Source: Bacteroidaceae bacterium (lineage in GTDB: Bacteria; Bacteroidota; Bacteroidia; Bacteroidales; Bacteroidaceae). From it: DNA of 64,000 nucleotides. The stretch covers positions 1 to 64,000 of the forward strand of contig JAGCPY010000005.1 in the NCBI GenBank assembly GCA_017965425.1. The letters are read 5' to 3'. The translations under genes and the position numbers were made by a program. Under the pieces are notes generated by a model. That model saw nothing but the letters and a program-made list of their open reading frames with translations. It did no database searches and was not told where the DNA came from. Numbering within the stretch: position 1 is the first letter of the stretch; each line of letters begins with the position of its first letter. Of the stretch, positions 24,752 to 64,000 are shown piece by piece.

Positions 24752-27700
24752 TTATTCCTGTTTCTTGCCTACGACCACATTGGTGTTGCCTGTCACCTCA
24801 GCTTGGTTGCCACCGCCGAAGACGTTGCCGCGGATATCCACACCGACGACGTCAGGCTCGCTTTCGTCCACATTTGCCGTGGAAGCGTCGTCTGCCAGAC
24901 TCACGAACTTAACTTTCGACAGCGTGCCGATGTTCACGGTGGTGTTACCGATCACCTTGGCTTCGTTACCGCCACCGAAGACTGTGCCAATAGCACCGAT
25001 GGCATCCTTTGCATGAGATGGAATTGCAAAACCTACAGTTGCATCATAGCCTGTATCACCAGGCTTCTTCACGGTTGAGCCGATGACTCTTGAGTTTTCA
25101 TAGATGACTGTATCCTTATGTATGCCATGCACCTCATCGATGTTCACCGTCGGGTTGCCTTTAATCTCGGCTGCTGCGCCATAGCCTCCGCCATAGACAG
25201 TACCGATGCTGGTGAACGATTTGACATTCACCACAGGAGAATTGATGCCTGCCGGTGCATTATAGGCTGCCAGGTTGCCGCCGCCGTAAAGTTCGCCGAT
25301 GATGATGGGATTACATCCTGTCTCTTCGATGTTCACGGTGATGGAGCCGCTGATGTTACCCCCCCTGTCGTTGCCGCCGAATACCTGTCCGTAGGTACCG
25401 TTGGTGATGTTGAGCACAACGTTGCCATTGACGTCGGCTTCGGCAGCGCCGCCGTAGGCCTTACCCAAGCCCCTAATACATCCTATTTCCAGCACAGCGT
25501 CGCCGTCCATCTCTGCATTGCGTCCTCCACCGTATGCCTCGCCCAGGTCGAAGTAACACACTCCCTTGTCCTCCAGCGTAGCACGTGCCTCCACACGGAC
25601 ATTACCCTTCGTGTTCGAGCCGCCATAGACTTCGTGTACCGTTCCGCCATAGACCATCACATGGGTCTTGCCCGTGCCGTAGCCGTAGTTCGTCGCACGT
25701 TCTTCCTTCGTACCATACGCATCGCCATCTGCATTGGGATATGCCATCAAACCTACGTGTGCACCTGGGTTATCAGTGTAGTTTTGTCCGTCATTGCTAA
25801 TGCGGTCTTTACCGTTACCACCACCAAAGACATGACCTAACTCGTAAGCACCGAGCACCGTCACCTGAGTAGAAGGTGCAGATGCGGCATTACCACCGCC
25901 ATAGACATAGTCGATGCTCACATCTTCGCAACCGTCGATAACGACTTGCAATGGATTCTTAGTAGCTACAATGCCACCTTCGGAATATTGACCTGTTGCA
26001 TTGCCGTCCCATGGCACGTAAGCTGCCAGGTTGCCGCCGCCATAGACGGCCTCCACCTCATAGGTGTCAGTGTCCTTGGTGGGCTTGGTCGTGGCGACGG
26101 TATAAGTGCTGTCGCTTTTTTTCAAGCCTACCGTCTTTAGCACTTTCACCAGCACCGTTCCCTGCGGTGAACCATTCAGGTTGTTGCATCCGAATACGCG
26201 TCCCGTGGCAGGAAGGTCGTTGTTCTTGTCATCTTTCTTTGTAGTGGGATAGAAAGCCGTTCCGTTCAGCGTCACCGTCACATCGCCCTGCACCATAGCA
26301 CCGGCGTTGGCAACTTCTGCTGCCGTGGCTCCGCTGGGAGGTATCACACCCTGACCGCCGCCGTAGGCGTTGCCGAGGATGATGCCGCCGAGCAGATCGA
26401 CGATGGTCTTGGCATTGTTCCTCGTCTCGTTACAGTCGGCGCTTGTGATGGCTGTGTTGCGAATGTCGTGGACGTTGGTGTTGGCGATGGCACCGCCACC
26501 ATAGACGTCGCCAGCGATCACGCCGCCCTTGATGCCCACCTTGACATCATGGTCCACCAGACCTGCCGTGGATGACGAGATGGCCCCGGCACCGCCGCCA
26601 TAGACGTTGCCATCCACCTTCGCTGAACCGTCGATAGTGACATCGGTGTCCTTGCGGACGTGACCGGCATTGCCGCCACCGAACACGTTCTGATAGACAC
26701 GGGCATTGCCCCTCACGGTGACGAGGGTGTTCTTGACGTAGGCTGCCTGCTTGTACAACACATCGGTGCTGGCCACACCGCGGCCGCTGCCATAGACAGA
26801 GCCGCGGACGACGGCCGTGGTGTCGATGACCACGCGCGTCAGACCCGTAGCGTACGGGAACGGATTGTTCGTGGTGGGGTCGTTAGTGACATGCTTCTTG
26901 CTGTCAGCAGCCGTCTCGTTGGCTTCGCCTACCGAAGCCAGGGAGCCGCCGCCATAGACATCGCGCCAGACGGTGCCGCCGACGACATTCACCGTGGTGT
27001 TGCCGCGTACCTTACCGGCCGTCTCACTGATCTTTTTATGGGGATGATCGACGCCGCGGCCGGAGCCATAGACATTACCTATATATATTGTCGTGCTGTC
27101 GGGGCGGCTAATAACCGTCGGGTCGCTGCCGATCTGTCCGCCGCGGATGTTGATTCGGGAATTTTCCCAGACGTGGCCGTTCTCGCCTGAGCCAAAGACG
27201 CAGCCGAAGACCTTAGTGTTGGCGCCGCTGACGCTGACGTGGGTGGAATGGGTGTAACCCATCTGACGGTACTGGATGTCAACAGAATCCTGACCTACCA
27301 CATAGTCGTCGGCCACCATACCGCAGCTGGAGCCGAAGACGAAGCCGTTGTTGTCGCCGGGAATGAGGTAGCCTGTGCCGAGGGCTGAGCCGTCGGTATC
27401 GACGTTGCCGACGTAGCCTCCGGTGATATTGATGGTGGCATCGCCGCCATCGACCTTATCCTCAATCATATCCGTGATGTGCATGTCATCCACGAGCAAG
27501 CGATAGACACCGACGGAAGCCAGCAGACCGCCTCCGTAGATGGCACGGCGCACCAAGCCGCCCGACATCGTCAGGTTGGTGTGTCCATAGACACGTCCTG
27601 CAGAAGAGCTTCGCTGCTCACCGGTCTGGTGGTGGACAGGGTCAACACCACGTCCGCCGCCGAACACATTGCCGATGTAGGGGTTCTTCGTGGATCCGTC

Positions 27701-30700
27701 GGCATTAGTCGTGTACATCTTGTTCGTGCCTTCCACGAGCGGCCAGCCTATGATGCCGCTGTGAATCCTGACATCGGTGTCGGTCTTCACGTGGCCGTTC
27801 TCGCCGCCGCCGAACACGGCACCATAGATATAAGGATAGTTCAGCGTCTCGGCAGTGCTGCCGGAATAGCTTCCCGGCTGCTGGTTCTCCGTGCCGATGG
27901 TGACGAAGGTCTTGTTGACATACTCCATGCTGGCGACGTAGTCGCTGCGGTCTGCCGACACACCGCGACCGGCACCATAGACACTTCCGTTGTTGAGGCC
28001 TTCGTGGCCCGGCGTGGTGTCGCCCACGGTGCCGCCGGTGATGGTCACCCGTACGATGCCGGTGGTATCTACGAACACACCCGTCAGGTAGTTGATGTCA
28101 CGCTCGTCGGGATTGTAGATAACACTGTCAACCTTGATACCGTCTTTGTCAACCACCTCGTCGTGCACATGTTGTCCGGCGGCCTTTTCCTTCACCGTAC
28201 CGACGGAGGCCATGGCACCGGAGCCGTAGATGTTGTGCCAGACGTGTCCGCCCGTCATCAGCAGCTCGGCATTGCCATAGACGGCACCTGCGGACAGACT
28301 GTATTTTGCTTCACTGATGGAGGAGCCTGACGTATAATACTGGTCCACACCACGGCCGCCGGCATAGACGTTGCCGCGGAACACAGGCTTCACGGCCACG
28401 CCGTGGTCGTCGAAGCCGACCTCGTCGGCAAGGAGTGCCGTGCCGATGCTGCCGCCGCTGATCTCCACATAGGTGTCATTCTTCACGTGCCCGTTGGCAC
28501 CGCCGCCGAAGACAGAACCCTTGACATCAGCACCCGGCTCGATATAGACCTTGGTGTCGTGAACGTAGGCCATCTTCACGATTTCGGAATTAGACGCGGC
28601 AGAGAGTCCGCGGCAACCGCCATAGACGAAGCCGCAGTTGAAGCCCTGCTTGCTGGCCGTGGAAGAGTAGCCGATGATGCCGCCCTTGATGTGTACCTCC
28701 GTCTCGCCGGAGTCATCGCCGTAACTGACCTCACCCGTGGTGGCGTTTACGGTTTCGTTGCCTACCGAGGCCAGGGAGCCGCCGCCGAAGACGTCGTGGT
28801 AGATCTTACCGCCGCTGACCTCGACGTAGGTGTCGCCATAGACACGTCCTGCCGTCAGCGAATATTTGTCATCGCCACCCGTGTCGATACCTCGGCCGCC
28901 GCCATAGACATTACCGCGGTAGAGGAGACGGCCACGGCCGTTGTCGTCGATCAAGTGCTCGTCATCGTTCAGCTCTGTGCCGACAAAACAGTTCTCTTTT
29001 ATATTGACCCTCGTGTTGTGCTTGACGTGTCCGTTCTCACCGCCGCCGAAGACGGAGCCGGTGACGTTGGCCGTACCCTCGATGCTCACGAGGGTGTTCT
29101 TGGTATAGGCCAGCTGCACGAGGGTTGAAGTGGTCTGAGCGCCAGCGGCCATACCGCGGCCTGAGCCGAACACAAATCCGTTCTCCCTACGGTTATCGCG
29201 GTCGGGGATTAACGTATTATAGTTGTTGGCAGAAGCGCCGCCGTCGGTGCCTATCTGTCCGCCCTTGATGGTGACAGTGGCCAAGCCTGTATTGTACGGG
29301 AAAGGATGTGTGTCAGTGACAAGGCTCTGATTCGCCTCTTCTTCGCGGACACCTACGGAAGCCAAGGAGCCGCCGCCATAGACGTTACGGTAAATGGTGC
29401 CGCCCTCGACGGTGACATTGGTGTTGCCCGCCACCTTGCCGGCGGTGATGCTGTAGCCGCCACCATCAATAGGGTCAATGCCGCGGCCGCCGCCATAGAC
29501 ATTGCCGCGGTAGATCATGTTGGCATTGAGATCCGCATCGGGCAAACTGGCCTTGTCCAACGCGATACCCACAGTGCCACTCTTGATCTTGACATCGGTG
29601 TCGTGAAGGACGTGACCGTTCTCACCACCGCCGAAGACACAGCCATAGACAGTACCACCCTGAAGGGTGACATCGGAGTTGTTCACAAACGAATAGCCGG
29701 AGTAGGCAGTGCCAGCCTTACCGAGGCAACCGCCGAAGACCGAGCCCTTGGTGTCGGTGGTCGTATTCTGGCCGATGGTGCCGCCCATGATGAGGATCTT
29801 AGCAAGACCGGATCCGGCTTCACGCAAATCGAACACATCGCCTTCATACATATTCTCAGAGGTATGAGTGCTATTGTAAGTGCTAGCCTGGCCTGAAGTG
29901 GCATAGTTGTAGGAGCCTACGGAAGCGAGCTCACCGCCGCCATAGACGTTGCCATAAATACGGGTGGTGTAGCCTTCGGCCTGCGAGATGTTCACCTCGG
30001 TGTTCTTCACCAGGCCGAGCATCTGGGTCTTAGACCAGTCGCTCATCAGCGTACCCTTGCTGCCGCCGAAGACATCGCCGATGCTGTACTGGCTGGTGAC
30101 CATCTGCGACGGGTTGCCGATGGTGCCGCCCGTGATGTTGATGGTCACGTAACCATGCGTAGCGTCCAAGGCATCCACGTCATTGCCGTAAAGTACCTGA
30201 TTCTTGCCGTCGGGAATCAGCACGCCGTAGTTAGTGTGGTCTTCCAACACAAGATGGGTGCCTACCGCCGCCATACGTCCGCCACCAAAGACCGATCCGA
30301 GGATCTTGGCATTCTCCGAGATATTGACGGTCACGTTGCCGCAGACGGCACCTGCCGTGAGAGCCAAGGCGGAGAATCCGCGGCCAGAGCCGAAGATATT
30401 GCCATCGACACCCGAGGAACCGAACGTGCCGATGAGGGCATTGCCCCTGATTGTGGTACTGACATCGCCTAAGACGTGGCCATCCTCACCGCCGCCGAAA
30501 ACGGAACCGAAGACAACGGCGTTGCCTTCAACGATGACCTCAGAAGAACCTACATTGGACCAGCCGTTGAACATGACACGCGGGTCGCCCATACCGGCAC
30601 CGAAGATGTAGCTGTTGACGGGACGGGCCTGGATGCTGTCGATGGTACGGGGAACACCCACGGTGCCACCGGTCATGTGTACCTTGCTGTGGCCCAGCAC

Positions 30701-33700
30701 GTCGGTAATCTCATTGCCGCCATAGACGTTGGTAAGGATATGTCCGCCAGAAATCTCGACCAAAGTATTGCCGCACACACGTCCTGCCGAACGGCGCCAC
30801 TGGCCAGGGGCGTAAGGATAGTAGCCCGAACCGCCGCCGAAAACGTGGCCGTAATAGCTGTGGCCGTCGCTGCCGGGCTTGGCACCGCCCTGAGAGTTAT
30901 ATTCGTTGGCAAAGTAGTCATAGACCTTGCGGTTGCCCTCAGGCCCGAACGGCCAGGCGTCGCACTGATGGAAGGGTGCGGTTGCCGCGTTGATATCTGC
31001 CGCTACGCCAGAATTTATGGCATTGATAGCAGTCGTCCATTGGGCATCGGTGTAGGCGGCATCCCAGTGATGTTCATTTCCTACTTTGTAGTGTCCTGAA
31101 CCGATCTGTCCGCCCGAAATCTTGACATGGGTATGGCGTAGCACCTCTCCGTTCTCCGAACCGCCATAAGCCGAGGCTGCAATCAGGCCGCCGCTAATCT
31201 CTAAATAGGAAGAGTCAGAGACGGCGAGCAGGTTGGCGTTGGAGTAAGCAGTAGAGTCAGCAATACCCTTGCTGGCACAGAACACATAGCCATAGTCATC
31301 ATCGGACGTCGGGTTGTTGGGGTCAGGCATCAGCTGATTGACCAGTCCCACCTGTCCGCCGCTGATGAGCACCTTGGTCAGGCCGGTGCCAGGTTGGCAG
31401 GTCTTGGGCTCATTCTCGAAGTGCCATGCTTCCTTCGCCGAATCGAACGTCTTAGTGCTCCAATAATCGGTGAAGGTTCCCACAGAGCCTAACTCACCGC
31501 CGCCATAGATACTGCGGCTCACATGGCCGCCAGCCATGTTGACCAGGGTGTTGCCCGTGACGATGGCAGCGTTAGGATTAGTGGCCACACCCTTGCCAGC
31601 GCCATAGACGGTACCTGAGACGAAGGCTCCGACAACGTCAGGCGTATCGCCGGTAGAGGTGAGCGTGATGGGCTGTCCCATCTGGGTGCCGATATTGACC
31701 GTTGTATTCCCATGGACTGCAGCTCTGTTACCGCCGCCATAGACATCAACCAACACACCCAGATTGTTGGGGTTGTCGGAGGAATTAAGCCCCAAGGCCG
31801 TCATCTTGGCTGGAACGCCTACGGTCGTATTATTTGCGAAGGAACCCGGTACCATGTTGATGTTCACCGTCGGGTTGGCATACATGGCAGCGCCAGCACC
31901 CAAACCTCCGCCAAACGTCTTGCCGATGTACGTGCAGGAAATGATATTCAGCTCGGGCTGGGTGTAGGGGAAGGTGTGCGTGGAATCTGCAGCAGGATTG
32001 GTAATGGGTGCTTTATAATTTTCGTCGCTCGTATCGGTGATAGCATGCATCTCAGCAGTCCTGGGCAGATAGATGGGTTTGCCATCTGAGGATGTCCCGG
32101 CGTCGTAATAGCCGTAAACCGAATAGGCTGCTTCGTTGCCGCCGAGATAGAGTTCGTCAATCTCGATAGGCACCTCACAGTCGCCCGTTTCCTCGATGTT
32201 CAGTTTGATGTGTCCCAAGATGGCTCCGCCCTGGTTATTGCCGCCGAAGACCTTACCGAATTTACCACTGGTGATGGTCGTTTCCACATTACCATGCACA
32301 TTGGCATTGTCAGCGCCGCAGAATAGTAGCGGAACCTTGACGTCTGGCTTACAGCCTAAAGTCATTATCAGGTCACCTGATATATCCGCATTCTTTCCTG
32401 CACCCACAATCTTCTCTACGTCAAGGTCGCAAGCGCCGCCAGTACCAACATCGATGGTCACATTACCTGTGATGGTTCCCTTCTCATTACTGCCACCGTA
32501 TGCCTCATGAATATAGCCGCCCGTCAGCAGTGTGTTGGCGTTTCCGTTCACATTGGCACCCGGGTTCTCCACCCACGACGAGCCTTCGTTCAGCGTATAG
32601 GGATCCTTACCGTTGCCGCCGCCGAAGACCTCCTGGATTTCGTAAGCACCCTTGACAAGCACGTTCGTTTCAGGAACAGCGGCAGCATTACCGCCGCCAT
32701 AGACATCCCGGATGCTGACATCGCAAGTCTCGATAATGACATTCGCTTTCTTACCTGTAACAGGCGTGGTGAAGTTGGCCAAGTTGCCGCCGCCATACAC
32801 AGCGGTAAGCTCATACGTCGGCGCCAGATACCCGTCGTCGGTCTCTTCCAACTTCAGTTTGTCGATAGCCGTTCTCGTGACGTTGCCAGGAACGGTCTTA
32901 TACACGGTTACGGTCACTTCGCCCTTCGGCGAGCCGTTCAGGTTGTTGCAGCCGAATACACGTCCGCTCTTCACCACACCCGTATGGTCGCCGGTGTAAT
33001 AGCTAGTCGTAAAGGCTGTTGCCGACGAACCGCCGCTGCTGCCCAGATTGACGTTGACATCGCCATAGACCAGAGCTGCCACTCCCGTTACACCTTCCAC
33101 GGGTTCTACCTTCCAGTCATTGGTGGTCTTGCCGTAGGCTGGGTCGCCTTCTTGAGCAGCATTGATTTCTTCCTGTGTATATTTCTCACCTGCCGAGGCG
33201 GTAACACTCAAGCGTCCCAAGCCGCCGCCGTAAGCATCGCCATGAATGGTTCCGCCCAGCAAGTTCACCACTGTCTTGTTGGTGCTGGTCGAGGGGATGG
33301 TCTCGCTGGCAGAACCGTAGCCTGCCGTCACATTATTTATATTAGTATTAGCAAGTGCACCGCCGCCATAGAGGCTCTGGTTGACAAAGCCATTCTGCAT
33401 ATTCACTGTGACGCTTCCACCCACATCAGCCCGATTTCCGCCACCAAAGACATTGAGAATACTCGACGATGTGCCACCATTGATATTCACCTCAGTATCA
33501 CCAAGGGCAGCCGAGGCATCGCCACCGCCAAAGACGCCACCCGTGATTTCCTTTACCGTTCCATCTTCATTAAACACCTTGCCTTCAACCACGGAATTAC
33601 CCTTAATGTTCAGGGTCGCTTTGCCGGTTACGGTGCCGAGAGTCGTCAAGTCCTCGGTGGTGTAGAGGATGTGATTGGTCTTGTCGATGGAAATGGAGTT

Positions 33701-38395: not shown

Positions 38396-38718
38396 TATCT
38401 TGAATTCTGCCCCCTGCTTAACATTGTTTAACAGGCCGAAGGCCATGAAGCTAGGTCTTTTAAGAACTATTTTTTAAGTGCCGCCTATTCAGGAGATAAG
38501 AAAACCACTTCTTTCTCATATTACACCCTCCTTCAGGCAGTCGTGCAAAAACCCCACCATGGCACATTGACCTCATCCCCTACCCTGCTCTGCAAGTATT
38601 CTTACAGCTGATAGCCGCCCCAAGCCCCTCTCACTTCTGCATTTTTGAAATGCCTGTTTAGACAGGCAAAGTAGAGATTGTATGCTATTTTCCCCGGACA
38701 ACAATATTTTTCAATAAA

Positions 38719-39186
38719 ATCCCTCAATCCCTCACCGAACACTATAATCGACTGAAAAAAAGGCGCTTGCAGGTGAGGGATTGGTGAGGGATTGGTGAGG
38801 GGAGGTGAGGGATTTACGTTAACCAAATGAGAATGAGGCATAAAGCATTCGTTCATCAAAAACAAAAAACAAAGGAAAGCCAGGGAAACCGGAGCAAGCA
38901 AGGGTTCCTTTTCGTTTGTTTTCTTGAAAAAGTCTATTTTTATGTATTGGTGTCCGCTAAAAAGCGGCCTGATAGGCCAATAAGCACATAGCCCAGAGTG
39001 CTTACTGCGAAACTTGAATGAATAATAGTACCTTCGCTTGCTGTTTTTCGCCTTCTTGACAGTCGCTTTTGACTTTCGATGGAGAAAAACCCTCACCATC
39101 CCTCACCAATCCCTCACCAATCCCTCACCTGTAAACATCTCATAGACTGTACCTTATCGCCATTGGTGAGGGATTGAGGCTTTTTG
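38719..39186. mobile_element. Second inverted-arm TGAGGGATT element
   Basis: The left arm (about 38719-38811) and right arm (about 39089-39186) are inverted, each with CTCAATCCCTCACC outside, a variable stretch, then GTGAGGGATTG repeats inward. The design is the same as at 3381-4043 but the 270-bp core is different and lacks the 22-bp repeats. An open frame at 38602-39099 on the minus strand crosses the arm and is considered spurious. The stretches 38447-38718 and 39187-39313 show no gene. Confidence 0.6.
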
Positions 39187-40458: not shown

Positions 40459-40530
40459 TGTGAATGTGATTTCGAATGCAAGCTTCTGCATCATATAGCG
40501 AGGTTGTTTCTGTTTCGATGATGCGGGATT

Positions 40531-40555
40531 CCGACGGGGAAACCGTCGGACACAC
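40531..40555 (+). repeat. REP palindrome at the RAYT 3' end
   Basis: Stem CCGACGG-GGAAA-CCGTCGG followed by ACACAC. Its last base overlaps the stop codon of the RAYT gene. Confidence 0.8.
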
Positions 40556-41802: not shown

Positions 41803-41809
41803 TTCTTTT

Positions 41810-41835
41810 CTCGCCGGGAATACCGGCGAGCACAC
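41810..41835 (+). repeat. REP palindrome upstream of the RAYT start
   Basis: Stem CTCGCCGG-GAATA-CCGGCGAG followed by CACAC, between the RAYT ATG and the stop of giant gene 2. It has the same orientation as the REP at 40531-40555, so the gene is bracketed by two REPs. Confidence 0.8.
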
Positions 41836-54007: not shown

Positions 54008-55318
54008 TCAATTGCTAATTGTAATCGTGGGATTGTTGAGGTCTGGCTCGGACATCACGTAGAGATATGTGGGCTTGATGAGCAGGTTGATGGTGAAGAG
54101 TTCACCAGCCCGCAGGGTCGGGAAATGTTCCACGATGTTGGGGTTAATCTGGTTCACAGCCACACAGCCTTGGCGGATGAGGTTCCCTTCGGGTTTCGAG
54201 ATGGTGTTCGTGTCATAGACATCGTATGTGGTCTTGAGGACAAAGCTATTGGTGGAAGCAGGTACCAGACAGCCTAGGAAGTCGTAGTAGTCATTCACAG
54301 GTACCTCAACTCCGAGGTCGTCCGGCTCGTTCGTCTTTTCGTAGAGCGTTATGGTCTTGTCTTCCGCTGGAGTTGTGGTCGGGAGGTATTCAATATTCGT
54401 CAGCGGGTCTGTACCTTCGCTGTTGGCTGTGAGCGTAATCCTTAGATTTACCGTAGGTCTGATGTTGACGGCGGTGAGTTCCACCTTTGTAATCCTGATA
54501 TTCCGCAGGGCGCGGTAGATGGGATCCACCTTGGTGGCGAAATGCAAGCCAGCATAGATGTGCTTCAGCAGGACGAAGAGGCGGTTGTCACCATCATCCC
54601 TACCTTGATAGCTGAAGTAGCCAAGGGGAACGTCCTTGGTCTTAGTGCCATTCATCTTCTCATCCTCTGAGGCCCAGCGCAGACCGACGATGACCGAAAC
54701 GTCGGCTGTCGTCAGTGCTTCGTAGTTGTTGAGGGTGATAACGGCTCCGTTGGCGAAATCATCGCCTCCCGTGCCGTTCAGGGATGCGATGGTGGCATTT
54801 TCTGTACCGCTCCGGGGCATGAAACCATAGATCCAGTATTGTTTATCCTTCTCCACGACGATGGAGGACTTCCAGATGCTAACAGGCGGAATACCATCCA
54901 AGCCTTGGTAAATGAAATCTCCAGCGGGATTGGCTGCTTCGGGAGTCATAAAGACACCGATGGTGCTGTCATCCATAGAAGCATGAGGATGGAGCTGTTC
55001 GTATGATTTGTAGCCATTGGGAAGATGATCGGTGTAGCCTGTGCCGAAATTGAAGTCGGGGTCGGGATCGGCACGGGTAATCCAGGGTGCGACATCAAGG
55101 AAGGAAGTGGAGTAAGACAACAGCTCCACTGTTGTCCGCGGACGGTTGTCAACAGGCATATCCTCGGAATCGCTCTGGCAGGAAGTCAGGAACAGGGCAC
55201 CCAAGAGGAAGAGGCTGCCGATAATTCTAGATATTCTTGAGCATCTATATATTCTAGGACATCTAGAAAATCTAGAAAATCCCGAGCAACGAGAAATTAT
55301 AGTAACTTTCTTACTCAT
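54008..55318 (-). CDS. Fimbrillin-family lipoprotein (last before giant gene 2)
   Basis: The 436-residue protein starts MSKKVTIISRCSGFSRFSR, a Ser/Arg-rich stretch, then SLFLLGALFLTSC with a lipobox, and acidic residues after the Cys (SDSED), consistent with a surface-exported lipoprotein. A TRA motif follows at about residue 82 (PWITRADPD). The rest is beta-rich with two domains and no enzyme motif, like the Mfa/FimA group. It lies 6 bp after the next fimbrillin gene and 4 bp before giant gene 2, so it may be an anchor or adaptor (inference). It is the most divergent of the set. Confidence 0.75.
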   Translation of the reverse strand: MSKKVTIISRCSGFSRFSRCPRIYRCSRISRIIGSLFLLGALFLTSCQSDSEDMPVDNRPRTTVELLSYSTSFLDVAPWITRADPDPDFNFGTGYTDHLPNGYKSYEQLHPHASMDDSTIGVFMTPEAANPAGDFIYQGLDGIPPVSIWKSSIVVEKDKQYWIYGFMPRSGTENATIASLNGTGGDDFANGAVITLNNYEALTTADVSVIVGLRWASEDEKMNGTKTKDVPLGYFSYQGRDDGDNRLFVLLKHIYAGLHFATKVDPIYRALRNIRITKVELTAVNIRPTVNLRITLTANSEGTDPLTNIEYLPTTTPAEDKTITLYEKTNEPDDLGVEVPVNDYYDFLGCLVPASTNSFVLKTTYDVYDTNTISKPEGNLIRQGCVAVNQINPNIVEHFPTLRAGELFTINLLIKPTYLYVMSEPDLNNPTITISN

Positions 55319-55324: not shown

Positions 55325-56584
55325 TTACCAGTTAAAGACGGAGTGATCGCTGAATCGTTTATTACCCCAGTCGTTGATGGCCACCTGGACGACGTCGATG
55401 GTGATGCCACCCGTTTCAGTGATCTTGAACTTATAGGTGTATTCAAAGCCGGCTTTCCACTGCATATACTCTGCAGGGATGACAACCGTCTTAATCTCAT
55501 CAGATACAACAGATACCCGTGCGGTGAAGCTGCTCTGAGTAGTGTTGGGAAGGACGGTGTACCACATTTCAGGGGTGTTAGGCCAACTTGTGGGCTGGCT
55601 ATTGACGGGATAGCCTTGTGGTGTACTAACGGGTACCTCGTAGAAGTCTATATCAAATTGCTTGATGCCCGTGGCGTTCGTTGTCGCCCAGGTCTCGGTG
55701 GTAGCTGTTCCTTTGAGGGGATAGGTGACGGAGACTGTGCCGGCAGTGTTGATAAGCACGTCGTTGGCATCGCCATTATCAAAATTCTCCGAAGGCCCGA
55801 AGCCGATATGTCCGAGCTTCTCGCGCCCGAAGTTGAGGCCTTCGACGAAGGTGAACAAGAATCGTACGCGGGCAAAGGGCTTCAGGAACTGCAGCACCAC
55901 AGGTTGTCCGAACTGACGGTCGGGATAAGTGGCGGCGTTGCCATCGCTGAACCAAAGGTGTGAGAAGTAGGGGGCAGCGGCGATAGTAGCGTTCGATGAG
56001 GCATCGACGGCTGCGGAGAAGGTGACAGCTTCTGCCGAACTGGAGGTGGAATTCCCGGTGGGGAAACCACCGGGCACAGTTACCACAGCGGGGGAGGTGG
56101 CGGGATCGGCAGTGGCGTTGCCGAGGGCATAGCCGAAGAAACGATAGGCATTGGCAGCGAAGTCCCAGTATTTGATGGTCTGTTCTGCCTGTTGCTCTGG
56201 CGTGGAGCCTTGACCCACATATTCCCAGTCGTTGGTGTTAGAGGTGGTGGTGTAGGCGGTGTTGGCACTCCATTTGACGGTGAAGTTAGGCATCACGGCC
56301 TGATAGCTGGTGTAGCTGCCACCAGAGTAGGCGTCGTTCTTATAGCCCCAGACCTGGAAGGTCTTGTCGCCCGTCAGCACCTCCTCCAGTCCGGCACGCG
56401 TCACCGCCTGCTCCTCCTGCATACCGCCGGCGAAGCTGATGGGCATCAGGTCCTTCACCTCCGGCCCGCTCGGCTCGCTCGGCTCCAAGTGGTCGCTGCC
56501 GGAACAGGCGGCAAAGACGAGCACTGCTGCCAGAAGCATGGGGAAACATGCCGTTGATGCTATATGTCTGAACTTAACCTTCAT
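55325..56584 (-). CDS. Fimbrillin-like (Mfa_like_1) lipoprotein with embedded REP
   Basis: The ATG at complement 56582-56584 (MKVKFRHIASTAC) gives 419 residues; a start at 56638 would read through a hairpin. The lipobox is VLVFAAC. AVTRAGLEE carries the TRA motif; NTAYTTTSNTNDWEYVGQG and QTIKYWDFAANAYRFFGYALG are the conserved fimbrillin core shared with the next genes. A REP palindrome at 56054-56078 lies in frame and encodes VPGGFPTG. The C-terminus (GGITIDVVQVAINDWGNK) differs from the longer paralogues, which have an extra domain. Confidence 0.82.
   Translation of the reverse strand: MKVKFRHIASTACFPMLLAAVLVFAACSGSDHLEPSEPSGPEVKDLMPISFAGGMQEEQAVTRAGLEEVLTGDKTFQVWGYKNDAYSGGSYTSYQAVMPNFTVKWSANTAYTTTSNTNDWEYVGQGSTPEQQAEQTIKYWDFAANAYRFFGYALGNATADPATSPAVVTVPGGFPTGNSTSSSAEAVTFSAAVDASSNATIAAAPYFSHLWFSDGNAATYPDRQFGQPVVLQFLKPFARVRFLFTFVEGLNFGREKLGHIGFGPSENFDNGDANDVLINTAGTVSVTYPLKGTATTETWATTNATGIKQFDIDFYEVPVSTPQGYPVNSQPTSWPNTPEMWYTVLPNTTQSSFTARVSVVSDEIKTVVIPAEYMQWKAGFEYTYKFKITETGGITIDVVQVAINDWGNKRFSDHSVFNW
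56054..56078 (+). repeat. REP palindrome inside a fimbrillin gene
   Basis: Stem CCCGGTGG-GGAAA-CCACCGGG followed by CACAG, the same design as the REPs around the RAYT 14 kb away, and translated without disrupting the frame. Confidence 0.75.
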
Positions 56585-56657
56585 TGTCTTTATTTTCTTT
56601 GCGCTTTCGAGGCCCGGCCTCTTCGCGCGCGGGTACATTATTTATTTTTTGGTGGTA

Positions 56658-56830: not shown

Positions 56831-58528
56831 TTAGGAAGCTATCTTGATAACCTTATAGTGCAAATTATCACTGCTATCTTTGTATTCAAATACATAGATG
56901 GTTCCTGCAGTCGGGGTGAACTTCGCACCATTGATTGTCAATGTTTCTCCTGTGGGAGAGTCTTCTTTTGCAATTGATGTAAAGGCTGTAAGTGTACCGG
57001 AGGCGGTAGGAGTAACTGTTAGCTTATTGCTGCTAGCATCGGTGAGTACCTTACTTCCACCTGTGCCATCTTCGCCATTTGCCAACGCATTGGCCACAGA
57101 GGCTTCAGTAATACCCTCAACGAAACCAGGATCTACTGTTGCCGTGTAGAGCTTAGCATCTGTACCAACGGTAAGAGCTACTCCATCGTTAACAACTACA
57201 TAGACGGGCTTGCTTGCCACGTATTCGTTGGAAGACGTAACCTGTGTGCCATTCTGATATGTGGTGATAGAAGGAACGTCAACTGTCGTAATGAAATCAA
57301 TGCTACCTGTCTCTGTTTCAATCTGAACGGCATCGAAGGTGATAGGCGTGAGGTCGTCGTCAGTAAGCTTGAAGATGTAGGTGTACTTGAAGTTGGGTTT
57401 CCACTGGAGGTATTCACCAGGAACAACGGCAGTACCAGTGATATCCATGGTCTCACCTGAATTTTGATTATACAAGGTATATTTGACCTTCAAAGTCAGA
57501 TCTGTCGTGACACCTTCGCGAGGGAAGACACTGGTATAAGCTCCGCTGGTATTGTCCCAAGTGGGTTCAGCCGATGTGACTGCCATTATAGTGGACGTGG
57601 AGAGCGTATTGAAATTCTGTCCAAGAGTAATGGTTGTTGCACGAGCCCCACTGGTGGCTACAACAGGACGATTCTCTAATGTAGAATTGACAGAACCATC
57701 GTTGTAGGTAATTGTAAGTGTATTAGCACCAGGCTTCAGATTATCAACGGTAGCTCCGAAGATGGATTCAGCAGAAGAACCTGTGGTAAATTCAGTAGAA
57801 CCATCTGTCTGATAGAACTTGATAGCCGTGACATCATAGCCCGGAATTGTCTCGTAAATACCAACACGAATGTGAGCAAGGACATTACGGAAGTTCAGAG
57901 TTACAGGATTTGTACCAGGAGCCATCTCAATTCGATCTGAGAAATAGAGATGTTCGAAGTCTGCATCCGCAGTAGTAACAATCTGATAACCTTTGAGGTA
58001 CTTGGTACTTACAGCAGTGTTCGTCTTGGTGATTTGAACCTTGCCAGTTTTAATGTCATTCTTTAGGGCTGATACAGCGGTGAAAACATAATTCGTTGCA
58101 TTCATATCCCAGTACTTAATTGACTGAGCAACGCCCAGACTAGGACTGATGTTTGTTTGGTAGTCATCGGTAGATGAAGTGTTGCTGTGGGTGTAGCCTA
58201 CATATTCCCATCCGTTGGTGTTGGACGTGGTCGAATGTGGCAGATTGACCCAATTCACCTGATAATTCGGGAATACCGAATTGGTACTGGGTACTGCAAC
58301 AGCAGCACCACCAGACTCATTTTTCTCACCCCAGACGATGAATTGATTGTCTAAGGCTGTGGCAGCAGTAGCGCCTCCAGCACGGGTGGCATTGGGCACA
58401 TCGAAGCCGAAGCTGATGGCTTTTTCGCCCTGAGCCAAACGAGCGTCTTCTTCACTTCCCGTGAAGCTGTCGTTGGCGCAGCTTGCAAATGCTAAGATAG
58501 CAGATGCGAGTAAAACATACTTTTTCAT
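56831..58528 (-). CDS. Fimbrillin-like lipoprotein, two-domain
   Basis: The 565-residue protein starts MKKYVLLASAILAFASC, a lipoprotein signal, followed by ANDSFTGSEED. NATRAGGAT holds the TRA motif. The fimbrillin core is seen in VFPNYQVNWVNLPHSTTSNTNGWEYVG and QSIKYWDMNATNYVF. After KFTYIFKL-type strands and PITFDAVQIE a second beta domain begins (VDVPSITTYQNGT, YVVVNDGVALTV) and the protein ends HYKVIKIAS. It belongs to the same paralogous series as its neighbours; the role is presumably a surface or pilus subunit. Confidence 0.83.
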   Translation of the reverse strand: MKKYVLLASAILAFASCANDSFTGSEEDARLAQGEKAISFGFDVPNATRAGGATAATALDNQFIVWGEKNESGGAAVAVPSTNSVFPNYQVNWVNLPHSTTSNTNGWEYVGYTHSNTSSTDDYQTNISPSLGVAQSIKYWDMNATNYVFTAVSALKNDIKTGKVQITKTNTAVSTKYLKGYQIVTTADADFEHLYFSDRIEMAPGTNPVTLNFRNVLAHIRVGIYETIPGYDVTAIKFYQTDGSTEFTTGSSAESIFGATVDNLKPGANTLTITYNDGSVNSTLENRPVVATSGARATTITLGQNFNTLSTSTIMAVTSAEPTWDNTSGAYTSVFPREGVTTDLTLKVKYTLYNQNSGETMDITGTAVVPGEYLQWKPNFKYTYIFKLTDDDLTPITFDAVQIETETGSIDFITTVDVPSITTYQNGTQVTSSNEYVASKPVYVVVNDGVALTVGTDAKLYTATVDPGFVEGITEASVANALANGEDGTGGSKVLTDASSNKLTVTPTASGTLTAFTSIAKEDSPTGETLTINGAKFTPTAGTIYVFEYKDSSDNLHYKVIKIAS

Positions 58529-58621: not shown

Positions 58622-60502
58622 TTACTGGACCTTGATAACTTTAATACCATATACACCATTATTCTCGATGTACTTGGTGTAGTACTTGGTATCTGCAACG
58701 GCACTTCCTGTAGCTGCTGTATAAGCAGAGCCATCATAGGTGTAAAGACCTGTTACATCATCACCGACAGCCTTAGTCACCACTTGATACTTATTTACAG
58801 GACTGCTGGCAGCGGTCTTGGTGTAGACAAAGGCATAAGTACCTGCAGATGCAAATGACTTCAGCTTACCAACGGTACCTGCTGTCAATCCTGTAATCTT
58901 GTTACCATCAATAAGAGGAATCTCAGTTTCGGTAAGACCTACACCGTCAGTGACAGGAGTCAACGTGATACCATTGCGTCCAACATAAGTTCCACTGGTG
59001 TTAGATACATATGTGTTCAGAGCATCCAGCACTTCTGCCTCTGTTGCACCTGCCTTTGATACAGTGTAGAGGACAGCCTTGTCTGTCAAGCTCAAAAGAC
59101 TTCCATCTTCAGTTACAATTACATAGACCACATCGCTGGTTGTATACTCACTCTTAGTAGCATTCGTGGCATCTGACGTAACGGAATAAGTGGTGATGCT
59201 GGGAGTGGCAACGGTGGTAATGGTCTCCTGAGTGTGCTCCTCGCTATCAACAACCACAGCGTCGAAGGTGATGGGATAGAGGCCTGTGACATCAACAGCA
59301 GGATTTGTCTTACCATTGGTGTTGTCACTGATCTTGAAGATGTAGGTGTAGGCGTAGTTGCTCTTCCACTGAGTGAACTGAGCAGGAATGAGAGCGGTTG
59401 CACCATGCACGGTAATCTCTTCACCACTTCCATCTGTTGATTCAAGAGTGTAGTCAACTTTCAGGGTAAGGACTTCACCATCTTCGTTGGGGAGAACGAT
59501 GGAGTAATCACCAGCAGACTTTCCTGTTTCTACGGCCCATGTAGGCTGTGCAGAGGAGCGAGCTAGGAAAGTTGTTCCAGTCTTCTCATAGAACTCTTTT
59601 GTAGTAACATAGGACAAGTTACCATAGGTCTGATTGGCCACTTTTGTTCCAGCAGCTGCAAAGGAGATGTGAGCCTTGTTATAGTCTGAGTTCTTGGTCG
59701 GGGTAAGATTGCTTTTGCCGACAGTTTTGAAATAGACAGTGCAAACACCGCTTGAGGGAAGTTTTGCATCACTTGCATAAAGAGCAGCAGCGCCTGCTGG
59801 TGTTCCGTCAGCAGCAGGATAGAACAGTACGTTCTTTACTGAGTAGCCAGGAATGGTCTCGTACAATCCTACACGAATCTTTGCGACAAGAGCACGGAAG
59901 GTGAGGTCCACTTGATCCTGGAAAGCGGGAGCACCAGTAACGGTTGGGTTGTAGGCTGTTACCAAGTCTGAAACATAAACCTTAGCGAGGTCAGCAGCGC
60001 TACCGGTAAAAGTGTAAGCAGCACTTGTTAAAGTTGCGTCATGGTCAAGACTCGAAACGGTTGCGGAACCTCCACCCAAAGAATATGCCCAGAAGTCATA
60101 CTGAGTGGCAGCATAGTCCCAGTACTTGATGCTCTGAGCCTGAACAGCTGTCTTGCCGGTGAGAATTGGTTGACCCACATATTCCCAGTTAGCAGTGTTA
60201 GAAAGGGTCTTGTCTGCGGTGTTCTCAACCCAATTTACATTGTAGTTGTCGAATACCTCATACACAGTTCCACCAACAGTCTTGATACCTTCTACGACAA
60301 AGTTGTTGTTCAGCAATGCTGCAGCATCAGCTCCAACATGGTCGGCACGAGTGGCACCCTTGAAGGTGGAGTTGAAAACGATGGCTCCGTTTTCGCCGGT
60401 AGCCTTGGGCTCGTTGCCTTCGCCAACGACGTTGTCATTTGTGCAGCTGGCCATCACCGTGATGGCGGCTGCGAGGAAGAAAAGTTTTTTCATTGTCTTC
60501 AT
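58622..60502 (-). CDS. Fimbrillin-like lipoprotein, two-domain
   Basis: The 626-residue protein (a start 9 bp later at MKKLFF is equally possible) has a lipobox in ITVMASC and TNDNVVGEGNE after it. GATRADHVGADAAALLNNNFVVEG includes TRA and is closely shared with the next gene upstream. VFDNYNVNWVENTADKTLSNTANWEYVG, QSIKYWDYAATQYDFWAYSLG and YPITFDAVVVD mark the fimbrillin domain. A second domain (ATPSITTYSV, YVIVTEDGSLLSL) follows and the end is YGIKVIKVQ. Its likeness to the 60623-63019 protein points to tandem duplication. Confidence 0.84.
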   Translation of the reverse strand: MKTMKKLFFLAAAITVMASCTNDNVVGEGNEPKATGENGAIVFNSTFKGATRADHVGADAAALLNNNFVVEGIKTVGGTVYEVFDNYNVNWVENTADKTLSNTANWEYVGQPILTGKTAVQAQSIKYWDYAATQYDFWAYSLGGGSATVSSLDHDATLTSAAYTFTGSAADLAKVYVSDLVTAYNPTVTGAPAFQDQVDLTFRALVAKIRVGLYETIPGYSVKNVLFYPAADGTPAGAAALYASDAKLPSSGVCTVYFKTVGKSNLTPTKNSDYNKAHISFAAAGTKVANQTYGNLSYVTTKEFYEKTGTTFLARSSAQPTWAVETGKSAGDYSIVLPNEDGEVLTLKVDYTLESTDGSGEEITVHGATALIPAQFTQWKSNYAYTYIFKISDNTNGKTNPAVDVTGLYPITFDAVVVDSEEHTQETITTVATPSITTYSVTSDATNATKSEYTTSDVVYVIVTEDGSLLSLTDKAVLYTVSKAGATEAEVLDALNTYVSNTSGTYVGRNGITLTPVTDGVGLTETEIPLIDGNKITGLTAGTVGKLKSFASAGTYAFVYTKTAASSPVNKYQVVTKAVGDDVTGLYTYDGSAYTAATGSAVADTKYYTKYIENNGVYGIKVIKVQ

Positions 60503-60611: not shown

Positions 60612-60622
60612 TTATAGTTAGT

Positions 60623-63019
60623 TTACTGAACCTTAATAACTTTAACGTAGTATTCGCCGTTGTTCTTGGTGTACTTGTCGAAGTAGGTCATGCCGTTGAC
60701 AGCGGTGTCTGTGCTGCCGCAAGCCACCTTGTCGGCTGCCTCGTCGATGACGAAGAGGCCGGTGGTCTGCTGAGGCAGGATGACGCAGTAGGTGTAGATG
60801 TCACCGAGGGTAGGATCAGTGGTCTTCTGGTAGTATGCTGTGCCATCGACAGGAGCTGCATCAGTCTTCAGTGTGTAGCTCGTGCCGTCGAAGGTGTAGA
60901 GGTCGGTAGCACTGGCAAAGTCTGCGTAAGCGACATTGTGAGCAGCCTTGTATGTCATGCCCTTGTCGGTGGTGTAGTAGTAGGTGGTACCGGTAGCAGC
61001 GTAGCCGCTGGCGATGCTATAGACATAGGGATCTGCATCTGTACCTGCACCGCTGCGGGTGTAGAGGTTGCCGACACCCTGACCGATGAAGGCGGTGATC
61101 ATGCCAGCGGAAGCATCGTTAGCGGGGAAGTACTTGACACCCTTCTGTGTATCACCGGCGGGAGCTGCTACGAGGGCGTAGCGGTAGAAACCATTAACGG
61201 CATCGCCGGCAGCCTTGGTGACAGGCTGGAAGTTGTCGGTGGTAGCGGTGGGAGCGGTCTTCGTGTAAACGAAGGCGTAGGTGGTAGCAGCAGTGGGAGT
61301 GAAGCGCACTGCTTGGTCAGTACCTACAGAGATGGCATTGCCGTCAGCACCGAACTCAACGCTGTTGGTCAACGTGAAGGTGGCTTCGGTCAGCACGAGT
61401 CCGCTGCGGCCCTTGACGGTGCCTGCAGCAGCGTCGTCGTCCTGCATGGACAGAGCATCTACAACCTCAGCTTCGGTCTTGCCGTCGGGAATGGTGTAGA
61501 GGGCAGCGTCGGCATTGACAATAGGATTCGCGTTAGTCATTGTCACGAGAGCGTCGCCCTCGTTGACGGTGACGAAGATGTCATTGCCATTGGCAGTGTA
61601 CTCATTGGCATTCACCACAGTGGAAGCCTGCTGATAAGAGGTGATGCTGGGGGTCATGACAGTGGTGATGGTCTCCTGCGTCTGGTTGTTGTCCTCCGCA
61701 TTCACGACCATAGCGTCGAAGGTGATAGGATAGAGACCTGCGGGATCGCTGTTGATGGTGGCATCGTCTGCCTGTGTAGGATCATAGACACCCGTGCGGC
61801 CGTTGGTCTTGTCGCTGATCTTGAAGAGGTAGGTGTAGGCGAAGCCCGGCTTCCAGGTGGTGTAGATACTGGGCACCTGTGCCTTGGCGTTCTTCACTTC
61901 GATGACCTCACCGCCACCGTCGATGGATTCCAGAGTGAAATCGACGCGGAGGTTGAGGTTCGTGCCATTTTCGTTGGGCAGGAAGATAACGTAGTAGTCG
62001 TCGGCTGCGTTACCAGCGTAGGAGGCTGTGTTAGAGGTGCGGCCGAGATAAACGCTACCGGGAGTCTGCTCGCCTTCCTCTGCGATGGTGTAGTTGAGGC
62101 CACCCCATTCCACGACGGTGGACTGGGTGCCGGAACCGGTGAAGGTCACGTGAGCCTGGTTGTTATCAGCCTTTGAAGGATCATCCACGGTGGGGAACGT
62201 CACGGTGTAGGTGCCGCTGGTGTAGATGTCGTTAGCCGTGGTGGTGAAGAGCGCAGGGGTGGTGGTGATCTCCGTAGCGGGATCGGTGAGCAGGCCTGCG
62301 GTCTGGTAGAACTTCACGTTTCTAACACTGTAACCGGGAACGGTCTCGTAGATACCGATGCGCACCTTGGTGCCGAGCTGACGGAAACGGAAGGTGACGG
62401 GGTCGTCGCCATACTGAGTTTTCTTAACCGTCACGAGGTCAGCGATGTAGCAAGCGCTGAGGTCGGCTGCGGAACCTTTGAAGGTGTAGGCTCCAGTGGC
62501 GGTGGCATTGGGATTGATGGCCGATACATAGACTTTGCCAGCAGCGAGTTCGCTTTCGTCGTAAACGGCCGTCTTGTTACCGGTGCTCCATGCGATGAAG
62601 TCATACTGAGGCTGGCTGTAGTCCCAGTACTTGATGGTCTGGCTGGTGATGCCGTTGTCGATGGCGTGCTTGATACGGCCCTTGCCCACGTACTCCCAGT
62701 TGCTGGAATTGGACTCGGTGGTGTTGGCGGTATTCTCTTTGTAAACCACTTCATAGTTGTCGAAAACGACATTGCTGTTGGTGGCAGCTGTGGTGGCACC
62801 TTTCTTGCCGGCAACCACGAACTTGTTGCCGAGCTTAGCAGCAGCATCGGCACCGACGAGGTCAGCACGGGTCATGCCTTTGCTACCAGAGTTGAAGAGG
62901 ATGGGACTCTCAGTCTCCACGCCAGGTGTTTCCTGCGGGATGCTGACAAAGTCGTCGCTGACGCAGCTGGCGACGAAGAGGCCAGCAGCAGCGGTGAGAA
63001 GAAGATGAATCTTTTTCAT
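60623..63019 (-). CDS. Fimbrillin-like lipoprotein, long form
   Basis: The 798-residue protein starts MKKIHLLLTAAAGLFVASC with VSDDFVS after the Cys. GMTRADLVGADAAAKLGNKFVVAG includes the TRA motif. VVFDNYEVVYKENTANTTESNSSNWEYVG, QTIKYWDYSQPQYDFIAWSTG and YPITFDAMVVN follow. Beyond the second domain (MTPSITSYQQAS, FVTVNEGDALVTM) it has further repeated strands with the pattern GxKYF/GxTYYY/GTAYYQ/GMTYFD, then ends YYVKVIKVQ. It is the longest complete member. The upstream gap (63020-63079) shows no promoter, consistent with one long transcript. Confidence 0.84.
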   Translation of the reverse strand: MKKIHLLLTAAAGLFVASCVSDDFVSIPQETPGVETESPILFNSGSKGMTRADLVGADAAAKLGNKFVVAGKKGATTAATNSNVVFDNYEVVYKENTANTTESNSSNWEYVGKGRIKHAIDNGITSQTIKYWDYSQPQYDFIAWSTGNKTAVYDESELAAGKVYVSAINPNATATGAYTFKGSAADLSACYIADLVTVKKTQYGDDPVTFRFRQLGTKVRIGIYETVPGYSVRNVKFYQTAGLLTDPATEITTTPALFTTTANDIYTSGTYTVTFPTVDDPSKADNNQAHVTFTGSGTQSTVVEWGGLNYTIAEEGEQTPGSVYLGRTSNTASYAGNAADDYYVIFLPNENGTNLNLRVDFTLESIDGGGEVIEVKNAKAQVPSIYTTWKPGFAYTYLFKISDKTNGRTGVYDPTQADDATINSDPAGLYPITFDAMVVNAEDNNQTQETITTVMTPSITSYQQASTVVNANEYTANGNDIFVTVNEGDALVTMTNANPIVNADAALYTIPDGKTEAEVVDALSMQDDDAAAGTVKGRSGLVLTEATFTLTNSVEFGADGNAISVGTDQAVRFTPTAATTYAFVYTKTAPTATTDNFQPVTKAAGDAVNGFYRYALVAAPAGDTQKGVKYFPANDASAGMITAFIGQGVGNLYTRSGAGTDADPYVYSIASGYAATGTTYYYTTDKGMTYKAAHNVAYADFASATDLYTFDGTSYTLKTDAAPVDGTAYYQKTTDPTLGDIYTYCVILPQQTTGLFVIDEAADKVACGSTDTAVNGMTYFDKYTKNNGEYYVKVIKVQ

Positions 63020-63079
63020 TGTGTTATAGTTTGAATTTTGTTTTTTGTGAGTTGAGTTGATTTTCTAGAGCGATTCGTT

Positions 63080-64000
63080 TTAGTGTTCTGTTTCAGAGCT
63101 GTTGTCTGTTCCATCGACCACGGTATAGATGGTTGTGGTCTTGTCCTCTGCCTCAACGACTACAGCATCGAAGGTGATAGGGAACAGGTTGGAAGGATTC
63201 TCGGGATCAGGAATCACGTCGCCTGGGTTACCTGGATCGGGAATGGTGGGTACGGGCACGGGGTTAGACGGGTCGTGCTGGTCACCCTTGGGTCCATCGG
63301 GATAGTCCGGATTCGGGACGAGCGGTACGTCGGGATTAGGAATGGTCTTGGTCGGGTCGTCAGGGAAGTCCGGATCCGGAATTGTCGGCTGTGGATGATT
63401 GGGGTCTGGGATATACGGAGGAATCACCTCGCCAGTGCCTGGATCGACGACGGGGTCATTGTCGCCACCGCCATTGTCTGGATCTGGGTCGCGACCGGGA
63501 CCTACGGTGATGTCTCCTCCCCCACCCTTGCCGGTAAAGCCGTTGCTGTTGTCAGAAATCTTAAAGAGGTAAGTGTATGAGTAGTTAGGTTTCCACTTCA
63601 AGAAATCTGCGGGCACGCTGACGTATGCATCACGTACATGGATGGAGTCGCCGCTACCATCGAGGGCGATGAGGGTGTAATCTACACGAATCTGCATCTT
63701 GAGGGAGTTCTCCTCATAAGGCAGGATGGGCTTGTAAGCTGAGGACACGCCGGCAGTGCCGTCAATGGTGTAGGTGCCCTTGCCGTAAGTGGCCTGGGTT
63801 GAGGATGTTCCGAGGAATGCCTTGACCTGAGTGGCGGTAGAAGAACCATCGACATCAAGATAAGGTTTGGAAGCGATGCCTTCCTGCGTGTTGGCGTAGG
63901 TATAGTCCAAGGCGCCGAAGTTGTTGGTGAAAGCCAGCGAATTGTCAGCACCAGCAAACTTCACCTTTGCAGCATTGGTGGCATCGTCATAGCTGACGGT
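63080..64000 (-). CDS. Fimbrillin-like protein, partial (5' end outside window), with Pro/Asp-rich insertion
   Basis: The frame is open to the right edge (307 codons seen). It shares the fimbrillin C-terminal half with its neighbours: KPILPYEENSLKMQIRVDYTLIALDGSGD, WKPNYSYTYLFKISDNSNGF and LFPITFDAVVVEAED. Between the last two, where paralogues have a 10-20 residue loop, it carries about 115 residues of PDP/PNPD-type sequence. It lacks the second domain and stops soon after (DNSSETEH). Whether it has a lipobox and TRA motif cannot be seen. It is the first of the series visible here, and the operon start is outside the window. Confidence 0.8.
   Translation of the reverse strand, partial: TVSYDDATNAAKVKFAGADNSLAFTNNFGALDYTYANTQEGIASKPYLDVDGSSTATQVKAFLGTSSTQATYGKGTYTIDGTAGVSSAYKPILPYEENSLKMQIRVDYTLIALDGSGDSIHVRDAYVSVPADFLKWKPNYSYTYLFKISDNSNGFTGKGGGGDITVGPGRDPDPDNGGGDNDPVVDPGTGEVIPPYIPDPNHPQPTIPDPDFPDDPTKTIPNPDVPLVPNPDYPDGPKGDQHDPSNPVPVPTIPDPGNPGDVIPDPENPSNLFPITFDAVVVEAEDKTTTIYTVVDGTDNSSETEH
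63190..63540 (-). repeat. Pro/Asp/Gly-rich repeat in the partial fimbrillin
   Basis: Imperfect repeats of P-D-P, P-N-P-D and P-x-I-P-D-P run for about 115 residues, including IPDPNHPQPTIPDPDFPDD. The composition suggests an extended, flexible stalk-like segment. Confidence 0.8.

Follow-up and report, generated by a model that had tools for sequence, protein, structure and literature searches.

A fimbrillin-like lipoprotein operon joined to giant YGGG-motif proteins in Bacteroidales, a candidate composite surface fibre

The window analysed here is a stretch of 64,000 nucleotides, bases 1-64000 of the 72,094-bp contig JAGCPY010000005.1, from the 3.7-Mb draft genome of a Bacteroidaceae bacterium. 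It carries an operon of fimbrillin-like lipoprotein genes that runs into the gene of a giant secreted protein (G1), with the gene of a second giant (G2) further downstream. All operon genes and both giants lie on the minus strand in the list of open reading frames (ORFs). In order of transcription the locus consists of a DUF3575 gene, a DUF5119-like gene, seven lipoprotein genes, G1, a RAYT-like gene, a broken Lnb-like gene, a palindromic repeat element and G2. The operon genes and the giants are located as follows (window positions unless marked as contig positions; aa, amino acids).

Contig 69351-67789, minus strand: DUF3575 protein, 520 aa (PF12099, 43.5 bits against a cut-off of 21.1)
Contig 67776-66505, minus strand: DUF5119-like lipoprotein, 423 aa (PF17145, 17.9 bits, under the cut-off of 27)
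63080..64000, whole gene contig 63080-64738, minus strand: fimbrillin-like lipoprotein (LPmaj), 552 aa, included in alignment A1
60623..63019, minus strand: LP5, LPmaj family, fimbrillin-like lipoprotein of 798 aa with a lipobox
58622..60502, minus strand: LP4, LPmaj family, fimbrillin-like, 626 aa; the family is linked by profile to Mfa_like_1 homologues
56831..58528, minus strand: LP3, LPmaj family, 565 aa (NCBIfam Riean_0653 sub-threshold, 27.1 bits against a cut-off of 57)
55325..56638, minus strand: LP2, fimbrillin-like lipoprotein, 437 aa, C-terminus ..F/YNW
54008..55318, minus strand: LP1, lipoprotein adjoining G1, 436 aa, candidate adaptor linking shaft and giant
41842..54003, minus strand: G1, giant secreted protein, 4,053 aa, with signal peptide, YGGG-motif region and type IX-like tail
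41842..42060, minus strand: type IX tail-like C-terminus of G1, covering roughly the final 72 residues, assigned from homologous tails
24752..38332, minus strand: G2, second giant, with lectin-like and CHB_HEX/Fn3-type N-terminal modules followed by a YGGG-motif region

The first-pass annotation had described an array of at least six fimbrillin-like genes of rising length that runs in one direction with short gaps into a 4,053-residue giant. The window holds lipoprotein ORFs of 798, 626, 565, 437 and 436 aa and one truncated by the window edge; on the contig the latter is complete at 552 aa and is preceded by another lipoprotein gene of 562 aa. The array therefore counts seven genes, six of them in the window (562, 552, 798, 626, 565, 437 and 436 aa in transcription order). 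The single direction and the short gaps stand, with intergenic distances of 4-192 bp, from coordinates, between the DUF3575 gene and G1. The rise in length is seen only in the direction away from G1 and only inside the window (436, 437, 565, 626, 798), and is then broken by 552 and 562. The junction with the giant is as described: 4 bp separate LP1 from G1 (54003/54008), and the G1 ORF of 4,053 aa is unbroken. For G2, the ORF as listed starts at 38446 (4,564 aa), and in our own reading the likely start is 38332, before a signal peptide. A yak-rumen metagenome-assembled genome has a contig (JAGCYV010000072.1) with LP1 of identical sequence and lipoproteins of the same lengths.

The linkage of LP1 to G1 recurs across genomes. 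LP1 relatives were searched for in one genome each of 84,980 species with an alignment of 11 homologues and two peptide patterns; the alignment came from loci found via G1, and the search and its matches made no use of G1. A pattern was matched in 123 stretches, and 71 distinct loci encode an LP1 relative, all of them in records titled as Bacteroidales, Prevotellaceae, Bacteroidaceae or Prevotella assemblies. The animals named in these records are all ruminants (yak, roe deer, red deer, sheep, goat and water buffalo). G1 lies directly behind LP1 in 70 of the 71 loci: 69 were recognised by script, and in L061 an antisense ORF had hidden LP1 from the script, with a tblastn match at 10001-11245 directly before G1 (11265). 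The gaps in this set range from -50 to 298 bp and are exactly -4 in ten loci, as in coupled genes.

The converse search, with G1 residues 185-760 (alignment A5) against 399 sampled genomes of the same family, found G1 in 67 genomes from 9 of 30 genera. LP1 stands directly before G1 in all 40 upstream loci fetched from this search, which were drawn from the stronger G1 matches (E 8.1e-144 or better) among the 67; the gaps are -14 to 117, with LP1 scores between 70 and 459 bits. Four of the 40 have a near-identical G1 in the 71-locus set, and 36 are new. With near-identical sequences removed, 105 distinct G1 remain among 121 gathered. Across the 399 genomes, 64 have both genes, 3 only G1, 7 only LP1 and 325 neither. 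LP1 matches 71 of the 399, the seven LP1-only matches being weak (E 4.6e-6 or weaker), and the G1-only genomes are two with G1 near a contig start (G223 and G339) and one with a weak G1 match (G343, 6.4e-4). Of the 64 genomes with both, 44 were seen in fetched sequence (the 40, the own genome, G031, G043 and G045), and in 17 more the G1 and LP1 matches lie, by coordinates, within 1.2 kb on the same strand.

Beyond these two sets, a first single-sequence G1 search matched 11 of 81 genomes, all of the own genus, and none of 32 from other families. One of the 11 (G006) matched weakly (1.2e-4) and was left out, and the other ten gave 11 loci, two of them in G043; LP1 adjoins G1 in the own locus and in ten loci of nine relatives. 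Among 393 genomes of the order, some of the own family, eight had a G1 match including the own genome. Five strong matches represent two further families; the remaining two, at 5.7e-15 and 3.8e-4, are weak. In all five loci of the two further families the main G1 copy has LP1 ahead of it, and one of these loci (G644) may coincide with L079 of the 71-locus set. Chance adjacency was rejected because the linkage is kept in both searches and in the co-occurrence across genomes; Fisher values, which take no account of relatedness, are not read as probabilities. Joint conservation of the two gene types, named beforehand as one point on which their association should be judged, is thus borne out in 70 of 71 loci of the LP1 search and in all 40 loci fetched through G1. 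A search for direct repeats across the LP1-G1 junction found none.

Profiles and homologues support a kinship of the lipoproteins with Mfa-like fimbrillins. In relatives, Mfa_like_1 or FimA matches sit between the DUF3575/DUF5119 genes and LP1: lipoproteins in this interval match PF13149 at E-values of 1.3e-9 to 3.4e-19, and one from G043 matches PF06321 at 1.6e-5. A distant LP2 homologue, in the same slot as LP2, matches PF13149 at 1.2e-11. In hhalign comparisons, LPmaj (A1) matches LP2 (A2) at 8.3e-36 and a PF13149-positive set (A6) at 1.3e-9 over 119 columns that take in the signal segment, and LP1 (A3) matches A6 at 7.6e-11 over 160 columns and LP2 weakly, at 1.1e-7 over 38 columns; these E-values are pairwise and without database correction, and A2 and A6 share one row. 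The C-terminal parts of LPmaj extend far past the stretch common to LP2. At the head of the operon, DUF3575 is over its cut-off in the own locus and DUF5119 in a relative. Among 59 loci with at least 9 kb upstream of LP1, 33 have a DUF3575-type gene, 27 a DUF5119-type gene and 40 either, some with weak scores; the remaining loci show unlabelled ORFs, so lineages differ in the upstream half of the operon.

Lipobox and Arg-Ala pairs were counted in the proteins of the 71 loci (complete ORFs scoring >150 bits, loose lipobox pattern). The lipobox pattern, a trait of type V pilus subunits, was found in 80 of 83 LPmaj, 39 of 43 LP2 and 63 of 68 LP1 proteins, and proteins without it (LPmaj 3, LP2 4, LP1 5, DUF5119 1) were left out of the Arg-Ala counts. 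An Arg-Ala pair at +25 to +41 after the lipobox Cys is present in 63/80 LPmaj, 22/39 LP2 and 25/63 LP1 proteins, compared with 2-5% of shuffled sequences (5% for the LPmaj shuffle), and in most shaft-type lipoproteins it lies about 32 residues past the lipid Cys. None of 21 DUF5119 proteins has the pair in this range. In Porphyromonas gingivalis, Mfa1, Mfa3 and Mfa4 are lipoproteins cleaved at an exposed Arg, and Mfa2 is uncut (PMC5789003, in part), and in Bacteroides a surface clostripain cuts lipoprotein pilins near the N-terminus (PMC12632263, in part). We take the Arg-Ala pair as an independent sign of type V pilin kinship and as the likely place of cleavage, and the DUF5119 protein appears to lack the site as an anchor would.

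The leaders of these proteins have further features. The n-region of the LP1 signal peptide is rich in Ser and Arg and is encoded by an 18-bp tandem array of 3.1 copies (window 55226-55281; L046). By eye the G1 leader resembles that of LP1, with no direct repeat detected between them, and in G041 three neighbouring lipoproteins have one identical leader in common.

G1 begins with a signal peptide, as judged by eye. A lipobox-like motif stands ahead of the first coil in only 2 of 70 G1 proteins, and the first coil motif lies within 140 residues in 79 of 110. The own G1 has 33 loosely defined YGGG-type motifs. The motifs that had earned it the description of a YGGG giant are indeed there, but 32 of the 33 are restricted to the first 2,000 residues (region ~60-2000), beyond which lies further sequence without a Pfam match. 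The proposed type IX secretion-like tail fared similarly: the own tail has no match to the TIGR04183 model, and the assignment comes through homologous tails. In the last 162 residues of ten G1 proteins, TIGR04183 is over the cut-off in two, below it in four and unmatched in four, the own tail among these; one of the ten, from the short G1 of L075 (2,397 aa), gives a poor alignment and is possibly no true tail. The own tail and one of the sub-threshold tails share 67% identity and a GVYIVNKKKI-type end, and the same kind of end is seen in 19 of 20 downstream pieces, the G1 end of L175 not being called. The own genome has 13 other TIGR04183 matches, a full-length SprA (2680 bits) and GldL over its cut-off. 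SprA is found in 66 of 67 genomes with G1 versus 244 of 332 without, uncorrected for relatedness.

A G2-like giant follows G1 nearly always. A G2 homologue was found in nine of nine loci with visible downstream sequence, out of 11 loci of which two end inside G1; four of these nine G2 run off the retrieved sequence and are incomplete, two of the four showing few YGGG motifs in what is visible. In 19 of 20 loci of the G1 search an ORF with at least five motifs follows G1, and in the other (L184), cut at a contig end, there are three motifs. In some loci 1-2 genes separate the giants. In the two further families a G2-like giant is present in three of four loci and absent in L197, and L201 is too short to tell. 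The own G2 has 67 YGGG-type motifs under the loose definition, from residue 207 on, and the longest G2 fetched has 7,883 aa (G041). In the first 1,000 residues of ten relatives, CHB_HEX_C_1/Fn3_assoc matches occur in nine and Peptidase_M26_N in three, and the own G2 gives the same matches; RicinB_lectin_2 is barely over the cut-off in the own G2 (26.5 versus 25.6) and barely under it in three of the ten. The last coil at the end of most complete G2 proteins is of the ..VTGNTNVxIGK type, and a minority end differently (L174, L180 and the second ORF of L189). No type IX tail was seen in G2 by eye, and the TIGR04183 model, run on the own genome, gave no match for either giant. Hence G2, which had been called a second giant of the same type, is a giant with YGGG motifs that follows G1 as stated, but is not quite of the same type because it shows no such tail. 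A solenoid fold of both giants, like the fibre, is putative; what bears on the fold is the motif counts and the Peptidase_M26_N match of G2. A gene of ~260-270 aa lies directly behind G2 in L178, L179, L183 and L187.

The interval between the giants holds three features.

40555..41835, minus strand: RAYT-like gene between the giants (22.8 bits against a cut-off of 80)
39314..40494, minus strand: Lnb-like (lipoprotein N-acyltransferase) gene, broken by a frame change
38728..39173, no strand: palindromic repeat element upstream of G2, with GGTGAGGGATT arrays at both ends

The RAYT-like gene (REP-associated tyrosine transposase type) has two REP-like hairpins in its interior besides those at its start and end, and its product continues at the C-terminus for ~200 residues past the part that resembles RAYT. 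It was rejected as a member of the system, given a homologue between the giants in only four of 29 loci (the own locus, G043, G251 and G441), and is probably outside the fibre system. The Lnb-like gene was set aside as well: among ten regions it is present in the own locus only, where it is broken, the later loci not having been searched, and it too is probably no part of the fibre system. The palindromic element has a second copy at window 3394-4028. Its GGTGAGGGATT arrays are oppositely oriented at the two ends, with a single inverted copy ~44 bp outside each, and 51 matches to one 96-bp element end occur in the own genome, many in inverted pairs; the element belongs to a family that resembles miniature inverted-repeat transposable elements (MITE-like). 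A 22-bp tandem repeat of 9.2 copies (window 3584-3786) lies within the first copy. A scan for promoters and terminators between the giants gave 7 versus 4.1 +/- 1.8 and 4 versus 3.3 +/- 2.0 in shuffles, respectively, which is not clearly above expectation.

Several known systems resemble parts of this locus. In its own gene cluster, mfa5 is the last gene; here G1 occupies the slot behind the fimbrillin-like genes. Mfa5 is a tip protein of Mfa1 fimbriae and a confirmed type IX substrate (PMC7835359, in part). The Mfa1 fimbriae of P. gingivalis (Mfa1-5) have Arg-cut lipoprotein subunits, an uncut anchor and a large type IX tip protein (PMC7835359 and PMC5789003, both in part), a set that this operon would share, but G1, the putative last subunit here, has ~4,000 residues, YGGG motifs and no von Willebrand domain, and the operon has up to five shaft-like paralogues, a second giant and leading DUF3575/DUF5119 genes. 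Since G1 shows no von Willebrand domain in its N-terminal half, the one Mfa5 hallmark tested, it is classed by presumed function as Mfa5-like and not as an Mfa5. The type V pili of Bacteroides are built from surface lipoprotein pilins cut near the N-terminus by clostripain (PMC12632263, in part), and relatives of this operon hold PF13149 proteins as those pili do; unlike there, a giant follows the pilin-like genes here. SprB of Flavobacterium johnsoniae is, as G1 may be, a very large type IX-exported surface adhesin, but it serves gliding motility, and the part of the source covered speaks of no fimbrillin array alongside it (PMC10202324). Giant1-5 of Apilactobacillus kunkeei are giant extracellular proteins of 3,000-8,000 residues whose genes stand one after another (PMC12863079, in part); the host is a lactic acid bacterium, no fimbrillin genes are mentioned in that part of the source, and the likeness is by description only. 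Among the matches listed in a search of open-licence PMC titles and abstracts, none describes fimbrillin operons joined to giants, and this speaks only weakly for absence. Taken together, the system is best described as a new form of type V pili.

On balance we favour reading the locus as a type V pilus-like operon (Bacteroidota, donor-strand type) in which the giant is the terminal subunit. The fimbrillin-like lipoproteins, in which a lipobox is seen, would pass the Sec system, become lipidated and reach the outer surface. There a surface Arg-specific protease would cut at the Arg-Ala pair and free the subunits for polymerisation by donor-strand exchange, while the DUF5119 protein, without the site, would stay lipidated as the anchor. 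LPmaj subunits would make up the shaft, and gene order and conservation suggest LP2 and LP1 as a distal adaptor. G1, with a secretory signal, no lipoprotein signal and a type IX-like tail, would leave by the type IX system and be joined to the distal end by way of LP1, in the manner of Mfa5 at the tip of Mfa1 fimbriae. Its repeats, together with G2, could give a very long reach toward plant fibre, mucus or other cells, and G2, with its carbohydrate-binding-like N-terminal modules, may extend G1 or work beside it. By analogy with Mfa5, a composite fibre that has G1 for its tip or stalk is plausible. More tentatively, and with a confidence that stops a little short of even, we suggest a new class of composite fibre in ruminant-gut Bacteroidales in which two export routes meet, with a donor-strand shaft from the lipoprotein pathway, LP1 as the adaptor, a type IX giant (G1, ~3,200-4,300 residues) and a second giant (G2, up to ~7,900 residues and with no type IX tail seen).

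A number of observations count against the pilus with a giant end piece. The six window lipoproteins, one of them a fragment, match no Pfam or NCBIfam fimbrillin family, so the fimbrillin label given on the first pass rests on homologues and profile comparison. Even among aligned homologues, fimbrillin matches are few (LPmaj 1/15, at 1.3e-4; LP1 0/11; LP2 1/10 for PF13149 and 1/10 for PF06321), and profile searches of the PDB with the lipoproteins found no meaningful relative. The Arg-Ala pair is present in under half of LP1 (25/63). One of the 71 LP1 loci, L062, has no giant in the 1.9 kb up to the contig end, and in G216, G314 and G420 the G1 and LP1 matches are, from coordinates alone, 5-12 kb apart or in reversed order. 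Two divergent G1-like giants, L195 and L196 (G545:C24 and G725:C43), are without LP1; their neighbourhoods resemble each other, differ from the main locus and are possibly the setting of a second system. In G1, four of the ten tails, the own one included, are without a TIGR04183 match, and no Pfam family matches at E up to 0.1, von Willebrand included; without a von Willebrand or other Pfam domain, G1 gives no sign of Mfa5 homology. Genome G090, with G1 and an estimated completeness of 100%, has GldL and no SprA or SprA_N match, although PF14349 matched in no control and absence is thus not shown. Finally, gene order does not demonstrate physical contact.

The same observations bear on two other explanations. 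G1 and G2 could be independent type IX-exported surface giants, adhesins or a coat, that are co-expressed with a nearby type V pilus under the same condition and not built into it. G1 might then anchor on the surface by its own type IX-like tail; two divergent G1-like giants do occur without LP1, and G2 is a separate protein, with no such tail seen and set apart in the own genome by the RAYT-like gene, the Lnb remnant and the repeat element. We consider this unlikely, given that LP1 stands directly before all 105 distinct G1 and that stop and start codons overlap in at least ten loci, which is tighter than co-regulation needs. That the lipoproteins are non-polymerising docking proteins whose variants tether G1 and G2 to the outer membrane would suit the lipobox-like signals of nearly all of them, the long C-terminal parts of LPmaj past the LP2-like stretch and the missing direct fimbrillin match in the window, but is quite improbable in view of the Arg-Ala position that is fixed in LPmaj and missing from DUF5119 proteins, the DUF3575/DUF5119 neighbours and the Mfa_like_1 matches in the operons of relatives.

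A pilus-like operon with a giant terminal subunit thus remains the reading we prefer, and the conserved block in ruminant-gut bacteria suggests an undescribed, very long type of adhesive fibre. Given the recurrence of G1 and a block of >40 kb of this genome, the block presumably earns its cost. If G1 does form the end of a pilus, the tip of the fibre alone may rival the pilus in length, and a sharp question is raised of how a pilus of the lipoprotein route receives a type IX-exported giant. If true, this would open a direct way to study how bacteria of the rumen stay attached to feed particles or to one another.

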